Part shown: positions 28,652-34,318 of the stretch, in pieces
Layout of the letters: each line of letters starts with the position of its first letter
Numbering within the stretch: position 1 is the stretch's first letter
Source: Cognatilysobacter terrigena
GTDB lineage: Bacteria > Pseudomonadota > Gammaproteobacteria > Xanthomonadales > Xanthomonadaceae
Assembly: GCF_004361065.1 (NCBI RefSeq)
Contig: NZ_SELT01000004.1
Span: forward strand, 62,001-126,000
Direction: 5' to 3'
DNA length: 64,000 nucleotides
Translations under genes and position numbers: made by a program
The notes under the pieces: model-generated
Databases searched by the model: none
What the model was told of the DNA's origin: nothing
The model's input: only the letters and a program-made list of their open reading frames with translations

Positions 28652-29227
28652 GTGACGCCGCTGTCGCGACTTCTCGCCTGCGCTCCCTTTCTTCTTGCAT
28701 CAGGATGCCTGCCCGTGCACGACGCGAATTCGTCCGACCTGCCGGTCGTCACCGCAGCGAACGGCCAGCACTTCCGTAACCACACGTTCGGCGCTTACTG
28801 CTACGACACCCGAAGCTGCAGCGTCACGTACGGCGGTATGGAGCATGTCGTGCCGAGCGAACGCGCTGCGACGCACTCGTTCAACGGCGAGAGTGACATC
28901 AAACACTGGGAAGCGAACGCGATCGTCGACAAGACATTCGCCGGGCCCGCAGTCGTGCGCTGGACGTCGAAAGACGGTACGCCCCTCGAAGCCACACTCG
29001 ATCTCGACCGCATCTTTCCCGGCCATGTCGTCCTCCATCGGGTTCCGGCCGATCAGATCCCGCCGAACGCGGTAATGGGCGATCCGGGGATCATCGTGGT
29101 CGTCGACGACCGTACCGTCGCCGTCTACATGAAGGCATTCGTCCCGACACGCGACCCGCAGATCCCGGGCAACCCTCACAGCAGTTTCCGCGCCGACCCC
29201 GTACGCGCCTGGTCGCATACCTACTGA
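28652..29227 (+). CDS. Putative immunity lipoprotein for the adjacent lipase effector (DUF3304-like)
   Basis: 191 aa. Signal peptide with lipobox LLASGC (Cys19), so a periplasmic lipoprotein. It has several Cys (GAYCYDTRSCSVTYGG) and the phrases AVVRWTSKDGTPLEA, GHVVLHRVPA and GIIVVVDDRTVAVYM. These resemble DUF3304 lipoproteins linked to lipase effectors; that match is from memory and moderate. GTG 28652 is the only fitting start, with a GGGGA box upstream. It lies 12 bp upstream of the lipase gene, the usual place for an X-T4SS or T6SS immunity protein, to protect against the lipase in the periplasm (inference). Confidence 0.7.
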   Translation: MTPLSRLLACAPFLLASGCLPVHDANSSDLPVVTAANGQHFRNHTFGAYCYDTRSCSVTYGGMEHVVPSERAATHSFNGESDIKHWEANAIVDKTFAGPAVVRWTSKDGTPLEATLDLDRIFPGHVVLHRVPADQIPPNAVMGDPGIIVVVDDRTVAVYMKAFVPTRDPQIPGNPHSSFRADPVRAWSHTY

Positions 29228-29239
29228 GGCCGCGCACTG

Positions 29240-30823
29240 ATGACGGAACATCACAAGGTTGGCCAGGACGGCATTCTCGAAGACGGTGTGAGCTTCCGCC
29301 CCGCCACGCAGGCGGACATCGAGACCTATCGCCACGCGGAGCAGCAGCTGGCGACGATGCGCACACCGCGCTTCCTCCCCGCCGGCGACGCGAATGCACG
29401 ACTGTTCGTCGCGTGCTTCGACGGCACGGGAAACGACATGCGGCACGACCCCGAACACGCTACGGCGGTGGCGCGCGTGTGGCAGGACGTCGAGGACGCC
29501 CGCCGCCGCGACCCGCGCATCGGTTCGGGTTACGTCGAAGGTATCGGGACGCAGAGCAATGCGGTCATCCGACTCGCCGACGGCGCGGTGGGGTTCACGT
29601 ACGACGACCGTATCGAGCGCATGTACCGTCTCCTCATCGAAAAGGCGGCGCAGTGGAAGGCGGAAAACCCGAACGTCGAGATCCGCATCGCGGACCTCGG
29701 CTTCTCGCGTGGCGCCGAAGAAGCCGCGGCGTTCGCGCGGGTCGTGCACGAACGCGGCATCCAGGATCCGCGCGGATTTCGGCACGAAGGAAGTGAACTG
29801 CACTACACCGCGCCGCCATTGGTTCCGCCCGGACGGGTGCCGCAAGCACTCGACCTTATCGATCCCGTCGGTACGGGAATGCCACGCCTCTCGGACCGAC
29901 GGCCGCCCGCGTCGGTGATGACCGGCTTCCAGATCGTCGCCGCGGACGAGCGCCGCAATCTCTTCCAGTCGACGAGCATTCTCGATCCCGGTGCGACGGC
30001 GGACGGACGCTTCCTTTCCGTAACCGTTGCCGGCGCGCATTCGAACGCAGGCGACAGCTACCACCACGATGGCCTCGGAACGCTGTCGTACAACCTCGTC
30101 GTGGATTCGCTCAACGGCCTGTCCGACACATCGCTCGCGCAGAAGCGCGACCTACCCGCCGACCCCGGTCGCTACGTCATCCACCGCTCCGAAGAAGGTG
30201 CGTTCTTCTATCGCACGTCGGTCTTCGACCGGCACGGCGAACGCGGTCGCGTCGACGAGCTTGCACCACGTGGCACACCGGGCGACCGCTTCAATGCGGA
30301 GCCGCGCGATGACGCGCTGGCAGCGCGATTCGAGTTCCGTCCGGTCGCGATCGGGCCTGTCCCGGCGGCGCTTCAGACGAAGACCCAGGCCGACGTCGCT
30401 CCGCGATCCGAAACCGAGTCGCTGCGCCCCGCCGACGCCACGCTGCGCGCCCAAGCACTCGACGGCGTGCACCGCCTCGACGCCCAGTTCGGTCGCACGC
30501 CCGACGCGATCAGCGAGCGTGTCGCCGCCGCGCTGCTGCCGGTCGCACGCGAGGCCGGGCTCGAACGCATCGATCGTGTCGTCCGCAGCGATGACGGCCG
30601 TTACCTGTTCGCGGTTCAAGGTGAGCTGACATCACCGACCAATCGCTGGGCGCGCGTGGATGCGGCGGTCGCCGCGAACACGCCCGTCGAAACGAGCCTG
30701 CAGGCGTTGCGGACGTTGAGTGCCGAACTCGATCGGCGACGCGACACTGCGCGCGACACCCCCGACCGCGTTGCACCGCAGCAGGCGCAGCCCGCGCCCG
30801 TTCGCACCATCGGCGCGCTCTGA
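29240..30823 (+). CDS. Putative X-T4SS antibacterial effector: DUF2235/Tle-like lipase with C-terminal XVIPCD
   Basis: 527 aa, no signal peptide. Lipase part: FDGTGND (60-66), nucleophile elbow GFSRG with Ser156, Asp208 in LDLIDPVGTG and His267 in AGAHSNAGDSY, a plausible triad of the DUF2235/Tle type. The C-terminal part (about 395-500) reads as the Xanthomonadales VirD4-interacting domain: ALDGVHRLDAQFGRT, LERIDRVVRS, YLFAVQGELT, and ends in a Gln/Pro-rich tail (QQAQPAP). That domain recruits toxins to the X-T4SS for killing rival bacteria. No VirB/D4 gene is in the window. Lipid target unknown. Confidence 0.78.
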   Translation: MTEHHKVGQDGILEDGVSFRPATQADIETYRHAEQQLATMRTPRFLPAGDANARLFVACFDGTGNDMRHDPEHATAVARVWQDVEDARRRDPRIGSGYVEGIGTQSNAVIRLADGAVGFTYDDRIERMYRLLIEKAAQWKAENPNVEIRIADLGFSRGAEEAAAFARVVHERGIQDPRGFRHEGSELHYTAPPLVPPGRVPQALDLIDPVGTGMPRLSDRRPPASVMTGFQIVAADERRNLFQSTSILDPGATADGRFLSVTVAGAHSNAGDSYHHDGLGTLSYNLVVDSLNGLSDTSLAQKRDLPADPGRYVIHRSEEGAFFYRTSVFDRHGERGRVDELAPRGTPGDRFNAEPRDDALAARFEFRPVAIGPVPAALQTKTQADVAPRSETESLRPADATLRAQALDGVHRLDAQFGRTPDAISERVAAALLPVAREAGLERIDRVVRSDDGRYLFAVQGELTSPTNRWARVDAAVAANTPVETSLQALRTLSAELDRRRDTARDTPDRVAPQQAQPAPVRTIGAL

Positions 30824-30826
30824 CCC

Positions 30827-31063
30827 TCAGCAGGTCTGCATCGAGATCGCGGAGCGGATCAGCAACGCGTCTTCGCCGCGCGCGATCGCCCAGGCATCGA
30901 GGCCGATGCCGAGCACGAGATTGGGACTAAGTTGCGCGAGGTCGACTTCGGCGACGCCCATGTCGTGGGCGTCGAGCTCGCGATGCGCATCGAGTGCGGC
31001 GGCGAGCCGTTCGGCCACCACGTGCATCGTGCCGTCGGTCATCTGGAATGCATGAAGGCGCAT
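30827..31063 (-). CDS. Hypothetical protein
   Basis: 78 aa starting MRLHAFQMTDGTMHVVAERL and including VDLAQLSPNLVLGIGLDAWA. No signal peptide, membrane segment or known motif. ATG 31063 has GAGG 6 nt upstream. It ends 4 bp from the convergent effector stop. Composition looks protein-like, but I cannot place it; it may be spurious. Confidence 0.45.
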   Translation of the reverse strand: MRLHAFQMTDGTMHVVAERLAAALDAHRELDAHDMGVAEVDLAQLSPNLVLGIGLDAWAIARGEDALLIRSAISMQTC

Positions 31064-31137
31064 GCATGCCTCGCGGGCGACGTGGTCGCCAGTCGTAGCC
31101 GCATCGGGCGGCCTCCGGTTCGAGAGCCCTCTACGAG

Positions 31138-31166
31138 GAGTCCCCGGCCGACGACGCCGGGGACTC
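31138..31166. repeat. Perfect 11-bp inverted repeat
   Basis: GAGTCCCCGGC and GCCGGGGACTC around CGACGAC. No T-run on either side, so not a standard terminator; could be an RNA processing or protein-binding element. Confidence 0.5.
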
Positions 31167-31273
31167 ATGCCTCACAGGAGGCGTATCCGCGCGAGGCGGA
31201 ACCGCGACGGAGAGCCGTCGCGCCATCACGCTGCGCCGACATGCGTTAGCCGTGCGTGACGGCACACACGCAG

Positions 31274-31301
31274 AAAAAACCCCGAGCCGGAAGGCTCGGG
31301 G
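31274..31301 (-). terminator. Leftward intrinsic terminator with no obvious gene
   Basis: CCCCGAGCC, GGAA loop, GGCTCGGGG (31280-31301). On the minus strand it is followed by six T (A-run 31274-31279). Strong terminator form. Confidence 0.75.
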
Positions 31302-31440
31302 CGGAGAGGAATGACCTGCGACCACGGTGATGCGAACTACGTATTCAGGCTCATCCAGCGGCCGTGAGATCGTCGTGATGGCCGCTTGCCGTTCGTCGCC
31401 ACGCGACACCTGCATCGCGCTCCGATGCATTCGAACGCTT

Positions 31441-31469
31441 AAAAAGAAAGCCCCGACAGGAGTCGGGGC
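31441..31469 (-). terminator. Second leftward intrinsic terminator with no obvious gene
   Basis: GCCCCGAC, AGGA loop, GTCGGGGC (31450-31469), followed on the minus strand by a T-rich tract (TTTCTTTTT, from 31441-31449). Upstream on the minus strand only short frames exist. Confidence 0.75.
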
Positions 31470-31897
31470 AGGCAAGCGTCGTCGCCGCGCAACGCCTGTG
31501 CACGGGCGTGCGGGGGCCGCGGTCGGTGCCGTTGGCTTTGCTTGTCGGCGGCCTTGCAGCAAAGGTGCCCGCGGCCGGGTTAACCGATCCTGATCCGCTC
31601 GATGGTTGCGATGCGATGCGCCGTTTGCACGCGAGCCATGTCGCAGCCGGCAATCGGGATGCGCGTCAGTCGCGAAATCCAATCGCACATCGACACTGCA
31701 CATCGTTGTCCTCCGGCATCGACTGCACAGCCTGCCTGCATGTCGATGCATCGATGAAGCGGACGACGTCGACCATCAGCGAACGTGACGCACACGATTG
31801 CATCGCAACGTCGTGCGCATTCACCACGGCTGGCTTGCCGCCATCTAGATATCGCGCGACCTAACGTCGTTCCCACGCACTCTTCGAGAACGACGAC

Positions 31898-33100
31898 ATG
31901 CTCGCGACCGTCTATCGACGTCCTTACAAGGTCCGCGCACAGCAGATGCCGGAACCCGTCATCGAACATCCCAACGACGCGATCGTCAAAATCGCGCGCA
32001 CGTGCATCTGCGGTTCGGACCTGCACCTCTACCACGGCCTCGTGCCCGACACCCGCGTCGGCCAGATCTTCGGGCACGAGTTTTGCGGCATCGTCGAAGA
32101 AGTCGGCTCGTCGGTGCAGAACCTCAAGAAGGGCGATCACGTCATCGTGCCCTTCAACATCGCCTGCGGCACCTGCTACTTCTGCCAGCGCGAGCTGTAT
32201 TCCAACTGCCACAACACTAACCCGCAGGCGACAGCCGTCGGGGGCATCTTCGGCTATTCGCACACCACCGGCGGTTTCCACGGCGGCCAGGCGGAATACG
32301 CGCGCGTGCCGTTCGCGGACATCGGCCCGACGAAGATCCCCGACGGCATGCACATCGAAGACGCGGTGCTGCTCACCGACGTCGTGCCCACCGGCTACCA
32401 GGCCGCGGAAATGGGCGACATCAAGGAGAACGACACCGTCGTCGTCTTCGGTGCCGGCCCGGTCGGCATCCTCGCCGCGCGGAGCGCGTGGCTGATGGGT
32501 GCGGGCCGCGTGATTGTGGTGGATCACGTCGACTATCGCCTCGACTTCGTATCGAAGTGGGGTCCGGCTGAGGTCGTCAACTTCAAGGAAGTCGACGACA
32601 TGGTCGTGCACATCAAGAAAATGACCGACTGGCTCGGCGCGGACGTCTGCATCGACTGCGTGGGCGCCGAAGCCGACGGTTCGCTCTGGCAGTCGATCAC
32701 CGGCGTGCGCATGAAGATCCAGGCGGGCGCGGCGACCGCATTGCAGTGGGCGATCAACTCCGTGCGCAAGGGCGGCAACATCTCGATCGTCGGCGTCTAC
32801 GGCCCGACCGTGAACATGGTGCCGATCGGTAATGCGCTCAACAAAGGCCTGACCATCCGCGGCAACCAGGCGAGCGTGAAGCGCCACCTCCCCCGCCTGT
32901 TCGAGCACGTCATGGCCGGCCGTATCAAGCCACGCGAAATCATCACGCACCGCGTCGCGCTCGAGGACGTGGACGAGGCGTACCACATGTTTTCGGCGAA
33001 GAAGGACGGCTGCATCAAGACCGTGCTCATTCCGCCCGGCATGGAAACCGTCAACACCGGCACCGTGACCACGACCACCACGCCGACCCATCTGCACTGA
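31898..33100 (+). CDS. Zinc-dependent alcohol dehydrogenase (MDR, formaldehyde-dehydrogenase-like)
   Basis: 400 aa. Catalytic zinc: Cys38 in CICGSDLHLYHG and His60/Glu61 in FGHEFCG. Structural zinc: Cys90, 93, 96, 104 in IACGTCYFCQRELYSNC. NAD motif VVVFGAGPVG (181-190). Resembles the glutathione-independent formaldehyde dehydrogenase group (long, with NPQATAVGGIFGYSHTTGGF). The C terminus is Thr-rich. ATG 31898. 10 bp before the small membrane-anchored partner gene at 33111, same strand; likely an operon. Substrate uncertain. Confidence 0.9.
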   Translation: MLATVYRRPYKVRAQQMPEPVIEHPNDAIVKIARTCICGSDLHLYHGLVPDTRVGQIFGHEFCGIVEEVGSSVQNLKKGDHVIVPFNIACGTCYFCQRELYSNCHNTNPQATAVGGIFGYSHTTGGFHGGQAEYARVPFADIGPTKIPDGMHIEDAVLLTDVVPTGYQAAEMGDIKENDTVVVFGAGPVGILAARSAWLMGAGRVIVVDHVDYRLDFVSKWGPAEVVNFKEVDDMVVHIKKMTDWLGADVCIDCVGAEADGSLWQSITGVRMKIQAGAATALQWAINSVRKGGNISIVGVYGPTVNMVPIGNALNKGLTIRGNQASVKRHLPRLFEHVMAGRIKPREIITHRVALEDVDEAYHMFSAKKDGCIKTVLIPPGMETVNTGTVTTTTTPTHLH

Positions 33101-33110
33101 GGAAACCGCC

Positions 33111-33518
33111 ATGACTTTCGACCGCTCGCAGATCTCCGGCTGGGGCGCCGACCTCGATCGCGCCAACCGCCCGGCCGTGCCGATGGAGCGCCAGCCACCG
33201 CGCCTGGAGAACGTGCATTGGGACATTCCGGAACCCCAGCGGCAGACCGTCGAGGTGCTGCACTCGATCGAACGTCCGGGCATCACGCCAGTGTTCGGCA
33301 GTGCGTGCCCACCGTCGGGCCTCTCAGGAAAGATTCGCCGCGCCGCATTCCGGCACAGCGAAGGCCGGCTGCGTCACTGGATGATGCTGCTGCTCGCCGA
33401 CCGCGTGAACGTCATCGAAGGGTTGTTCGACGACGCGCGACACTCCAAGCGCGTGCATACGATCGCGGCGGTCGGCCTCGTCGGGCTCGTCGCGATGTTG
33501 TGGCTGCGCAAGAGCTGA
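33111..33518 (+). CDS. Conserved membrane-anchored hypothetical protein next to the zinc dehydrogenase
   Basis: 135 aa. N-terminal part is hydrophilic (DRSQISGWGADLDRANRPAV, ENVHWDIPEPQRQTVEVLHS, ERPGITPVFGSACPPSGLSG). A single C-terminal membrane segment follows (HTIAAVGLVGLVAMLWLRKS). I recognise the phrase pattern WGADLDRANRPAVPMER as recurring beside such dehydrogenases in Xanthomonadales, from memory. GAGG precedes ATG 33111. Predicted tail-anchored orientation; function unknown. Ends directly at the convergent gene's stop (33519). Confidence 0.75.
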   Translation: MTFDRSQISGWGADLDRANRPAVPMERQPPRLENVHWDIPEPQRQTVEVLHSIERPGITPVFGSACPPSGLSGKIRRAAFRHSEGRLRHWMMLLLADRVNVIEGLFDDARHSKRVHTIAAVGLVGLVAMLWLRKS

Positions 33519-33953
33519 TCAGGTTTTCGGCGGCTTCTTGGAGGCATGGCTCGCGACGAGCACCCAGTGCCCGTCGCGACGAATCCACGTATCGGTGAAC
33601 GCAAAGTCGGCAGCGAACGCGCTGCCGGCGGCCGTGCCGCGGATGTGTGTGATCCCGGTGATCACCGCGGCACTCCCGTAGCGCCGCACGACCTGGTCGC
33701 TGTTGCGGAACTCGTCGTAGCGCGGCTCGCGCTGCTCGACTTCGCGCAGCGTCTGGGCAAGGTCCTGCACGACGCCGTTCGAACCGGTGAGCGTGAACGT
33801 CGGATCCAACGCACGACGCAAGTACGCCGCGTCGCCGCCTTCGAATGCATGGCAGACCGCGCGTTCGGTATCGCGCAGGTCGCGTTCGCTGCGATCCATC
33901 GCGACGGCGACGGTCGGCAGCAGCAGGCAAAGCAACGCGATCCGACGCAACAT
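33519..33953 (-). CDS. Exported SnoaL/DUF4440-like (NTF2-fold) protein
   Basis: 144 aa with a signal peptide ending AVA-MD. NTF2-like body: RAVCHAFEGGDAAYLRRAL, DPTFTLTGSNGVVQ, TGITHIRGTAAGSAFAADFA, FTDTWIRRDGHWVLVASHAS. The last phrase is a hallmark of DUF4440. The central pocket and export suggest a small binding or hydrolase-like periplasmic protein; function unknown. A second exported NTF2-like protein is at 39132. ATG 33953, 12 bp from the next gene upstream in the same direction. Confidence 0.85.
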   Translation of the reverse strand: MLRRIALLCLLLPTVAVAMDRSERDLRDTERAVCHAFEGGDAAYLRRALDPTFTLTGSNGVVQDLAQTLREVEQREPRYDEFRNSDQVVRRYGSAAVITGITHIRGTAAGSAFAADFAFTDTWIRRDGHWVLVASHASKKPPKT

Positions 33954-33964
33954 GGCGATCTCCA

Positions 33965-34318
33965 CTACGACGACGTCGCGTCGTCTTCCCAATGGAAGCG
34001 GTGCAGCAGGCGATGCGCCAGCGGCGCGACGACGAGACCCGCTGCGACCAGAAACACCAGGCCCGCATACAGCGCATAGAGGCCGGCGAAGATCTTGCCG
34101 CTCTCGTGCTTCGGCGCGTCCACCGGGCCCATGCCGCCGAGCAGCATCGACGCGTTGAGGAAGGCGTCGGTCCCGTTGAGGCCTTCGAAGGCCATGTAGC
34201 CCGCCATGCCGATGCCCAGCGAGAACGCGAGCAGCGCGAGCGCGACGAGCGCGTGTCGCCCGACGCGTCGAAGGAACAGCGGGAATGGCAGGAGCGGACG
34301 CGTGCGGGACTCGTACAT
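33965..34318 (-). CDS. Small two-helix membrane protein
   Basis: 117 aa. Two membrane segments: HALVALALLAFSLGIGMAGY and IFAGLYALYAGLVFLVAAGL. Between them lies LNASMLLGGMGPVDAPKHES, which resembles a pore-like Gly-rich loop and could be conserved. The C-terminal tail is cytoplasmic (HRFHWEDDATSS). Start ATG 34318 chosen; ATG 34327 is also in frame. No clear Shine-Dalgarno at either. 12 bp ahead of the DUF4440 gene, so probably co-transcribed. Function not recognised. Confidence 0.7.
   Translation of the reverse strand: MYESRTRPLLPFPLFLRRVGRHALVALALLAFSLGIGMAGYMAFEGLNGTDAFLNASMLLGGMGPVDAPKHESGKIFAGLYALYAGLVFLVAAGLVVAPLAHRLLHRFHWEDDATSS

Follow-up and report, generated by a model that had tools for sequence, protein, structure and literature searches.

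A genus-restricted locus of three putative small RNA units behind two minus-strand terminators in Cognatilysobacter terrigena

Introduction

What is terminated by two strong intrinsic terminators, about 150 nt apart, when no gene on their own strand appears to lead into them? The question is raised by an intergenic stretch in a window of 64,000 nucleotides (the whole stretch of Cognatilysobacter terrigena DNA that was analysed). A first-pass annotation had regarded the pair as orphan hairpins, and had proposed two short independent transcripts, either small RNAs or leader peptides with attenuators. By comparing related genomes we demonstrate conservation and synteny of the stretch, its non-coding character, the pairing of its predicted stems and the relatedness of short elements that open its parts. 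On these grounds we think it probable that the locus is an array of small RNAs, confined to the genus, in which each unit has its own promoter-like element, and below we weigh this against four other explanations.

Results

Two intrinsic terminators on the minus strand

Both hairpins are present, within about one base of where the first-pass annotation had placed them. Terminator 1 (31441-31469, minus strand) has an 8-bp GC stem (stem-loop 31469-31450; 7 of the 8 pairs are G-C) followed by the T-run TTTCTTTTT. Terminator 2 (31274-31302, minus strand) has a stem-loop at 31302-31279 with 9 pairs, 8 of them G-C, or 10 if the closing G-T pair is included, and then six T at 31279-31274; the spacing from terminator 1 to terminator 2 is 147 nt. 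At both sites a GC-rich stem thus runs directly into a U-run on the transcribed strand, which is what defines an intrinsic terminator. A terminator scan of 8 kb returned 10 terminator-like entries, against 4.0 +/- 2.0 in shuffled sequence; three of the 10 (one nested) are terminators 1 and 2, and their hairpins are the only entries in the 8 kb with at least five consecutive T. Terminator 2 has at least five T in all six genomes that carry the locus; the tail of terminator 1 is weaker, being a mixed T-rich stretch in some. As sequence elements the two terminators are genuine, and they are predicted to stop transcription.

A conserved block with changing neighbours

A search with the minus strand of 31050-31900 against 40 related genomes gave matches in six, namely the window's own and five congeners. 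The stretch that is kept, 31598-31064, is found in five of the seven other genomes of the genus, or six of eight counting the window's own. With a shorter query seven of the eight genus genomes matched; we count six, the two hits in the seventh (G004) being of 20-30 bases with E of about 0.005-0.009. A search of genome contigs with the RNA1 pattern, in which the window's own record and those nearest to it may be missing, found four named records (Lysobacter xinjiangensis, L. lacus, L. segetis and a Lysobacter MAG), a group that we take to be the one now called Cognatilysobacter.

In all six genomes the conserved block extends from about 31598 to a small gene at 30827-31063 on the minus strand, which encodes a 78-aa protein with no assigned function, and the surrounding genes vary. 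The upstream neighbour is a divergent ADH-like gene in the window (31898-33100), G005 and G006; in G002, G003 and G007 it is a same-strand gene of 119 aa, 554 aa (presumably urocanate hydratase-like) and 247 aa, ending about 40, 60 and 280 nt, respectively, before the lead element of RNA1 (see below). In the three of the six genomes in which the upstream gene diverges, RNA1 cannot be made by read-through from it. The ADH gene and two further genes (31598-33977 of the window) are absent at this place in G002, where the block nearly adjoins the 119-aa gene.

The description of the terminators as orphans holds on the upstream side, where the ADH gene diverges; what it missed is the link to the 78-aa gene (31063-30827), which lies just downstream on the same strand. 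The ATG at 31703 that had been put forward as a start codon does exist behind a GGAGG, in a frame (ORF 31751-31131) that runs open through both hairpins, but it lies outside the conserved stretch: DNA past about 31598, including the region of this ATG, gave no alignment with the relatives.

Non-coding character of the block

Insertions and deletions within the block often differ from multiples of three among the genomes (for example 1, 2, 5, 8 and 14 bases). When the window's three sense frames were compared with all sense frames of five relatives, each matched several different frames about equally and none was preferred, and no conserved short open frame precedes a terminator in the window or these relatives. 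Long stop-free frames do persist in single genomes, such as two of the three sense frames of G005. A coding role for the 206-aa frame through both hairpins was rejected because of the indels, because no frame is preferred and because Pfam gave no match. A plus-strand start codon opposite RNA2, GGAGAGGAATG, was also considered and set aside; by eye it is not retained in G003, and the frame is short elsewhere.

Three blocks, each opened by a related element

Each of three successive blocks opens with a related 16-base element, which in the window reads TCAGGATCGGTTAAC before RNA1, TCACGACGATCTCACG before RNA2 and TCACGCACGGCTAACG before RNA3. The first-pass annotation had counted two transcripts, and the third block, RNA3, had escaped it. 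All coordinates that follow are on the minus strand, and the 5' ends of the RNAs, like the promoter-like function of the lead elements, are putative.

RNA1 is preceded by the lead element at 31578-31593 (TCAGGATCGGTTAACC), which is aligned in six genomes. Its core as modelled occupies 31445-31568, is closed by terminator 1 and contains the near-invariant AAGGCCGCCGACAAGCAAAGC; mean column identity in the six-genome alignment of RNA1 is 84%. The RNA2 lead element lies at 31363-31378 and the putative RNA2 body at 31303-31362, closed by terminator 2. In the alignment of six genomes this body is poorly conserved except at its 3' end, where TTCCTCTCC (31311-31303) is found in five of the six, G007 having TTTCTCTCC; the pyrimidine-rich stretch UUCCUCUCC likewise precedes the RNA2 terminator in five of six, with UUUCUCUCC in G007. 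Both TTCCTCTCC and UUCCUCUCC are unpaired in the predicted fold of the window's sequence. The RNA3 lead element (31244-31259) is followed by hairpin a (31204-31221; GCGACGG-CTCT-CCGTCGC), hairpin c (31169-31182; GCCTC-CTGT-GAGGC) and hairpin d (31138-31166; GAGTCCCCGGC...GCCGGGGACTC). The T-run after hairpin d is poor in the window and proper only in G003 among the six genomes. The tips of the RNA3 hairpins bear CUCUCC in five of six genomes (CCCUCC in G006) and CCUCCUG in all six.

The similarity of the lead elements was first noticed by eye, and the regions tested were centred on it. In the best ungapped 16-column match of the three alignment profiles all three stand in one register, with a score of 28.5, against 20.1 +/- 0.9 (maximum 24.9) in 400 column shuffles, none of which scored as high. 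The strict form TCAYGNNNGGYTAAC has six exact occurrences in the eight genomes, five at the array locus and one elsewhere, and the control gave two matches; the copies at the locus belong to RNA3 in G000, G002 and G005 and to RNA1 in G005 and G006, and within the window's genome the exact form is found only at the RNA3 lead element. Most of the 18 aligned lead-element copies do not fit the strict form, and when one mismatch was allowed the 16-base form was found at 7 sites of the window's genome and the control at 9, a result that is uninformative on looser copies elsewhere. A sigma-70-type promoter scan of 8 kb, in which 0.6 sites were expected, found none and did not detect the lead elements; nor do they fit any promoter type that we could name, ECF, sigma-54, RpoH and CRP types included. 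Judging from its position, the element is most likely promoter-associated.

Predicted structure

Covariation was assessed on six related sequences, which is few, and against shuffles that do not preserve relatedness; pairs were counted only in the principal hairpins of each consensus fold (21 of 40 predicted pairs for RNA1, 9 of 23 for terminator 2 and 22 of 39 for RNA3). For RNA1, 96.8% of cells are paired and six pairs show two-sided changes, a number reached in 1 of 500 shuffles; these changes fall in the inner helices. All cells (100%) are paired in RNA3, and its three pairs with two-sided changes were equalled in 12 of 500 shuffles. The covariation scores of both RNA1 and RNA3 exceed those of all 500 shuffles. 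Within RNA3, every cell is paired in hairpins a and d, with one and two pairs, respectively, showing two-sided changes; the stem of hairpin c is invariant in the six genomes and hence uninformative on covariation. At terminator 1 the outer six pairs are invariant and the inner two vary, each with one two-sided change and one genome unpaired. At terminator 2 (92.5% paired), five of the nine pairs counted are invariant, two show two-sided changes and two depart by unpaired cells only; two such changes were matched in 43 of 500 shuffles and the covariation score in 5 of 500, and a control slid by three columns gave an equal number of two-sided changes. Therefore covariation for RNA2 alone is weak.

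Folding stability was compared with shuffles for the shorter blocks in three of the six genomes per block. In the window the RNA2 fold, computed on 31372-31272 and so covering part of the lead element, has z -4.0, and two relatives give -2.2 and -1.6; the RNA3 fold has z -3.6 in the window, and -3.0 and -3.2 in relatives. None of 200 shuffles was as stable as either block of the window. The RNA1 fold is little or no more stable than its shuffles (z -1.3, -0.45 and -1.5), and the long stretches 31740-31440 and 31440-31270 are not more stable than theirs (z -0.70 and -1.33). The locus thus has what is expected of small non-coding RNAs, being conserved, non-coding and structured, with RNA1 stability not above shuffles and RNA2 covariation weak.

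Distribution in the family and relation to known RNAs

Covariance models built from the six sequences, R1 for RNA1 and R2 for RNA3, were applied to 198 family genomes, which came from a larger group under stricter filters, with a match cut-off of E <= 0.01. R1 matched 20 of the 198, six at 116-133 bits (its own source sequences) and the rest at no more than 30.7 bits; R2 matched seven, six at 104-126 bits and one (G173) at 29.9 bits, and it scored 30.9 bits on the window's own plus strand. More than 100 bits with R1 or R2 was reached only by the six genus genomes. The weak R1 matches (14 genomes, up to 31 bits) were rejected as wider homologues, 14 of 17 inspected stretches (among L047-L070) holding a GCCCCG-type hairpin; of the others, L051 and L056 are without it and the L048 stretch is empty. 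RNA1, RNA3 and the 78-aa gene co-occur in six of the eight genus genomes, and none of the three was found in G004 (99% complete) or G001 (81% complete). As far as searched, the predicted array is restricted to one genus.

No Rfam 15 family matched over its gathering threshold in the 64-kb window, and a permissive scan of 30600-32100 gave 11 weak hits of 15.1-20.7 bits, against thresholds of at least 35.8; neither Rfam scan of the window contained a known riboswitch aptamer, and ARAGORN found no tRNA in the 64 kb. We considered whether the array might be sX13 (RF02232), and rejected this: at gathering score the window contains no match to sX13, which sits at a separate locus in seven of the eight genus genomes, so that the array comes in addition to it. 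At one of these sX13 homologues (L079, 1431-1610) we observed an upstream stretch TTCAC...CGTGCATG that is also present in three other congeners (L078, L080 and L076). sX9 (run without a positive control) gave no match in the window either. Among the open-licence titles listed for sX13, Lysobacter sRNA, the genus and tandem sRNAs none concerned the array locus, and those listed for Lysobacter sRNA and the genus included no sRNA study of this bacterial group.

The 78-aa gene

The 78-aa gene is at the locus in the same six genomes (five of the seven other congeners). Its changes are mostly in third positions in the four genomes compared codon by codon, G003 being left out. More distant relatives of the protein (29-37% identity) are encoded elsewhere in five of the six genomes, and one of them (the 93-aa frame of L029) adjoins a gene that is presumably RecQ-like. 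The longer frame enclosing the 78-aa gene has no Pfam match, and the structure predicted from 4 sequences (mean pLDDT 58.5) was too low in confidence for a fold search. On the far side of the 78-aa gene the window has a plus-strand gene pair (28652-30823), of which one gene (29240-30823) encodes a protein with an XVIPCD / Tle1-like phospholipase domain and the other a partner of 191 aa; the pair is also present in G002, and is absent between the same neighbours in G003, G005, G006 and G007.

Possible targets

The pyrimidine-rich stretches suggest pairing with ribosome-binding sites. A search for GGAGAGGAA-N2-8-ATG, GGAGAGGAA being the exact complement of UUCCUCUCC, found nine sites in the eight genomes. 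Four of these are one and the same gene start, in G000, G002, G003 and G005, and we take the gene to be nrdA (ribonucleotide reductase). The other five precede a 205-aa frame with a signal-peptide-like start (G002), two similar 14-aa frames (G005 and G006), and two more that are 52 and 15 aa long. The similar 14-codon frames, on the minus strand of L083 (G006) and L091 (G005), may represent a tiny conserved gene or a leader. In G006 and G007, both of which bear RNA2, the search did not find nrdA, and G004, which is without the array, has a different nrdA leader. The nrdA match is weak evidence for a target, because the nrdA leader carries its own UUCCUCUCC arm facing its binding site (UUUCUCUCC in G003), and this arm is also present in G015, where the array models gave only a terminator-type hit. 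Matches to UUCCUCUCC at start codons are few, and are not clearly meaningful.

A separate observation concerns the nrdA leader itself: in L092, about 3-30 bases upstream of its start codon (position 1501), UUCCUCUCC and GGAGAGGAA could pair as the arms of a hairpin and so hide the nrdA ribosome-binding site; four congeners have similar arms, as does one genome from another genus (L096).

Discussion

We propose that three short non-coding RNA units are encoded one after another on the minus strand, between about 31595 and 31130. The first two, RNA1 of about 130 nt and RNA2 of about 80-90 nt, would each begin just past a lead element and stop at its own intrinsic terminator; RNA3 would begin after the third lead element and fold into a string of stable hairpins, and either end at a weak hairpin terminator or read on into the 78-aa gene as its 5' leader. 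We infer separate promoters and separate transcripts. The RNAs may act in trans, with UUCCUCUCC (RNA2) and CUCUCC and CCUCCUG (RNA3) pairing with purine-rich ribosome-binding sites. We favour this reading because of the terminators, the synteny, the lack of a preferred frame, the covariation of RNA1 and RNA3, the folds of RNA2 and RNA3, the lead elements and the variable upstream neighbour. Against it are the lack of a promoter match, folds of RNA1 and of the longer stretches that are close to those of shuffles, the poor conservation of the RNA2 body, the weak covariation of its terminator, the stop-free frames and the small number of UUCCUCUCC matches at start codons. Both terminators close conserved non-coding blocks that open with related elements, and the order of the blocks is independent of the upstream gene. 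Of the two forms that the first-pass annotation had allowed for its independent transcripts, the comparison thus supports small RNAs and, the frames not being conserved, speaks against leader peptides.

The alternative that survives best, although we hold it to be unlikely, is one long leader of the 78-aa gene, in which a single promoter near 31590 is followed by two successive conditional terminators (attenuator- or riboswitch-like) that gate the gene. All elements lie on one strand, in a fixed order upstream of the 78-aa gene, and co-occur in six of eight genomes; the primary sequence of RNA1 is near-invariant, as it often is in sensor RNAs; and, by eye, pairing seems possible between GCGGCCCCCG of RNA1 and the GGGGC arm of terminator 1. 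However, the lead element is repeated before RNA2 and RNA3, the spacer that separates terminator 1 from the RNA2 element is lost in G003 and unconserved elsewhere, no antiterminator was seen for terminator 2, and there is no Rfam riboswitch over threshold or among the weak hits.

We regard it as distinctly improbable that the array is instead autoregulated, with the lead element as the operator of a dedicated local regulator for which the 78-aa protein would be a candidate. The near confinement of the strict element to the locus across eight genomes, and the co-occurrence of the 78-aa gene with the RNAs, agree with such a scheme, while the lack of a recognised Pfam domain in the 78-aa protein, the low confidence of its predicted structure and the paralogues elsewhere in the same genomes count against it.

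There is still less to commend the view that the terminators belonged to upstream genes and were kept after rearrangement, RNA1 being merely a 3' UTR, which we consider very unlikely. The same-direction upstream genes of G002, G003 and G007, with their ends close to the RNA1 lead element, would fit, but the flanking ADH gene diverges in the window, G005 and G006, the conserved block stops near 31598 regardless of the neighbour, and neither two close terminators nor a repeated lead element would be required. Protein-coding leader peptides with attenuators are hardly credible, for the open frame that crosses both hairpins of the window, and those found in some relatives, are outweighed by frame-shifting indels, the absence of a preferred frame when three frames were set against five relatives, and a start-codon region that is not conserved.

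A three-unit array has partial parallels elsewhere. In Rhodobacter, CcsR1-4 are tandem sibling sRNAs encoded with a small protein, and have anti-Shine-Dalgarno-like loops. The array resembles these in having several short RNAs in a row beside a small-protein gene, with loops of the same kind; it differs in that its units are alike in the lead element only (as far as compared), lie upstream of the gene, and in two cases have strong terminators. Attenuators and riboswitch leaders share with the array terminator hairpins upstream of a gene on the same strand; in contrast to them, it has two serial terminators and repeated lead elements, and no recognised aptamer or leader peptide. Like sX13 of the Xanthomonadaceae, the array would provide structured intergenic sRNA in the same bacterial family, with a GCCCCG-type terminator and pyrimidine-rich hairpin tips; unlike sX13, to which it is not homologous, it has three units and CUCUCC/CCUCCUG motifs, and matches no Rfam family. 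A study of sX13 in Xanthomonas describes 4C/5C loops and a locus beside polA, with the C-rich loops acting on G-rich motifs at ribosome-binding sites and Hfq not being needed (PMC3771888).

One may go further and imagine a regulatory island peculiar to the genus, with three RNAs, one locus-specific control element and a dedicated regulator (possibly the 78-aa protein), the RNAs blocking ribosome-binding sites and nrdA being a possible target; taken as a whole, we regard this as a long shot.

As small RNAs, the predicted units are of an ordinary kind; what is unusual is that three unlike units share one local lead element. What appeared to be a pair of orphan hairpins becomes a defined, conserved three-unit RNA locus outside every Rfam family, at which, through the repeated, locus-specific lead element, one signal could switch several unlike RNAs together.
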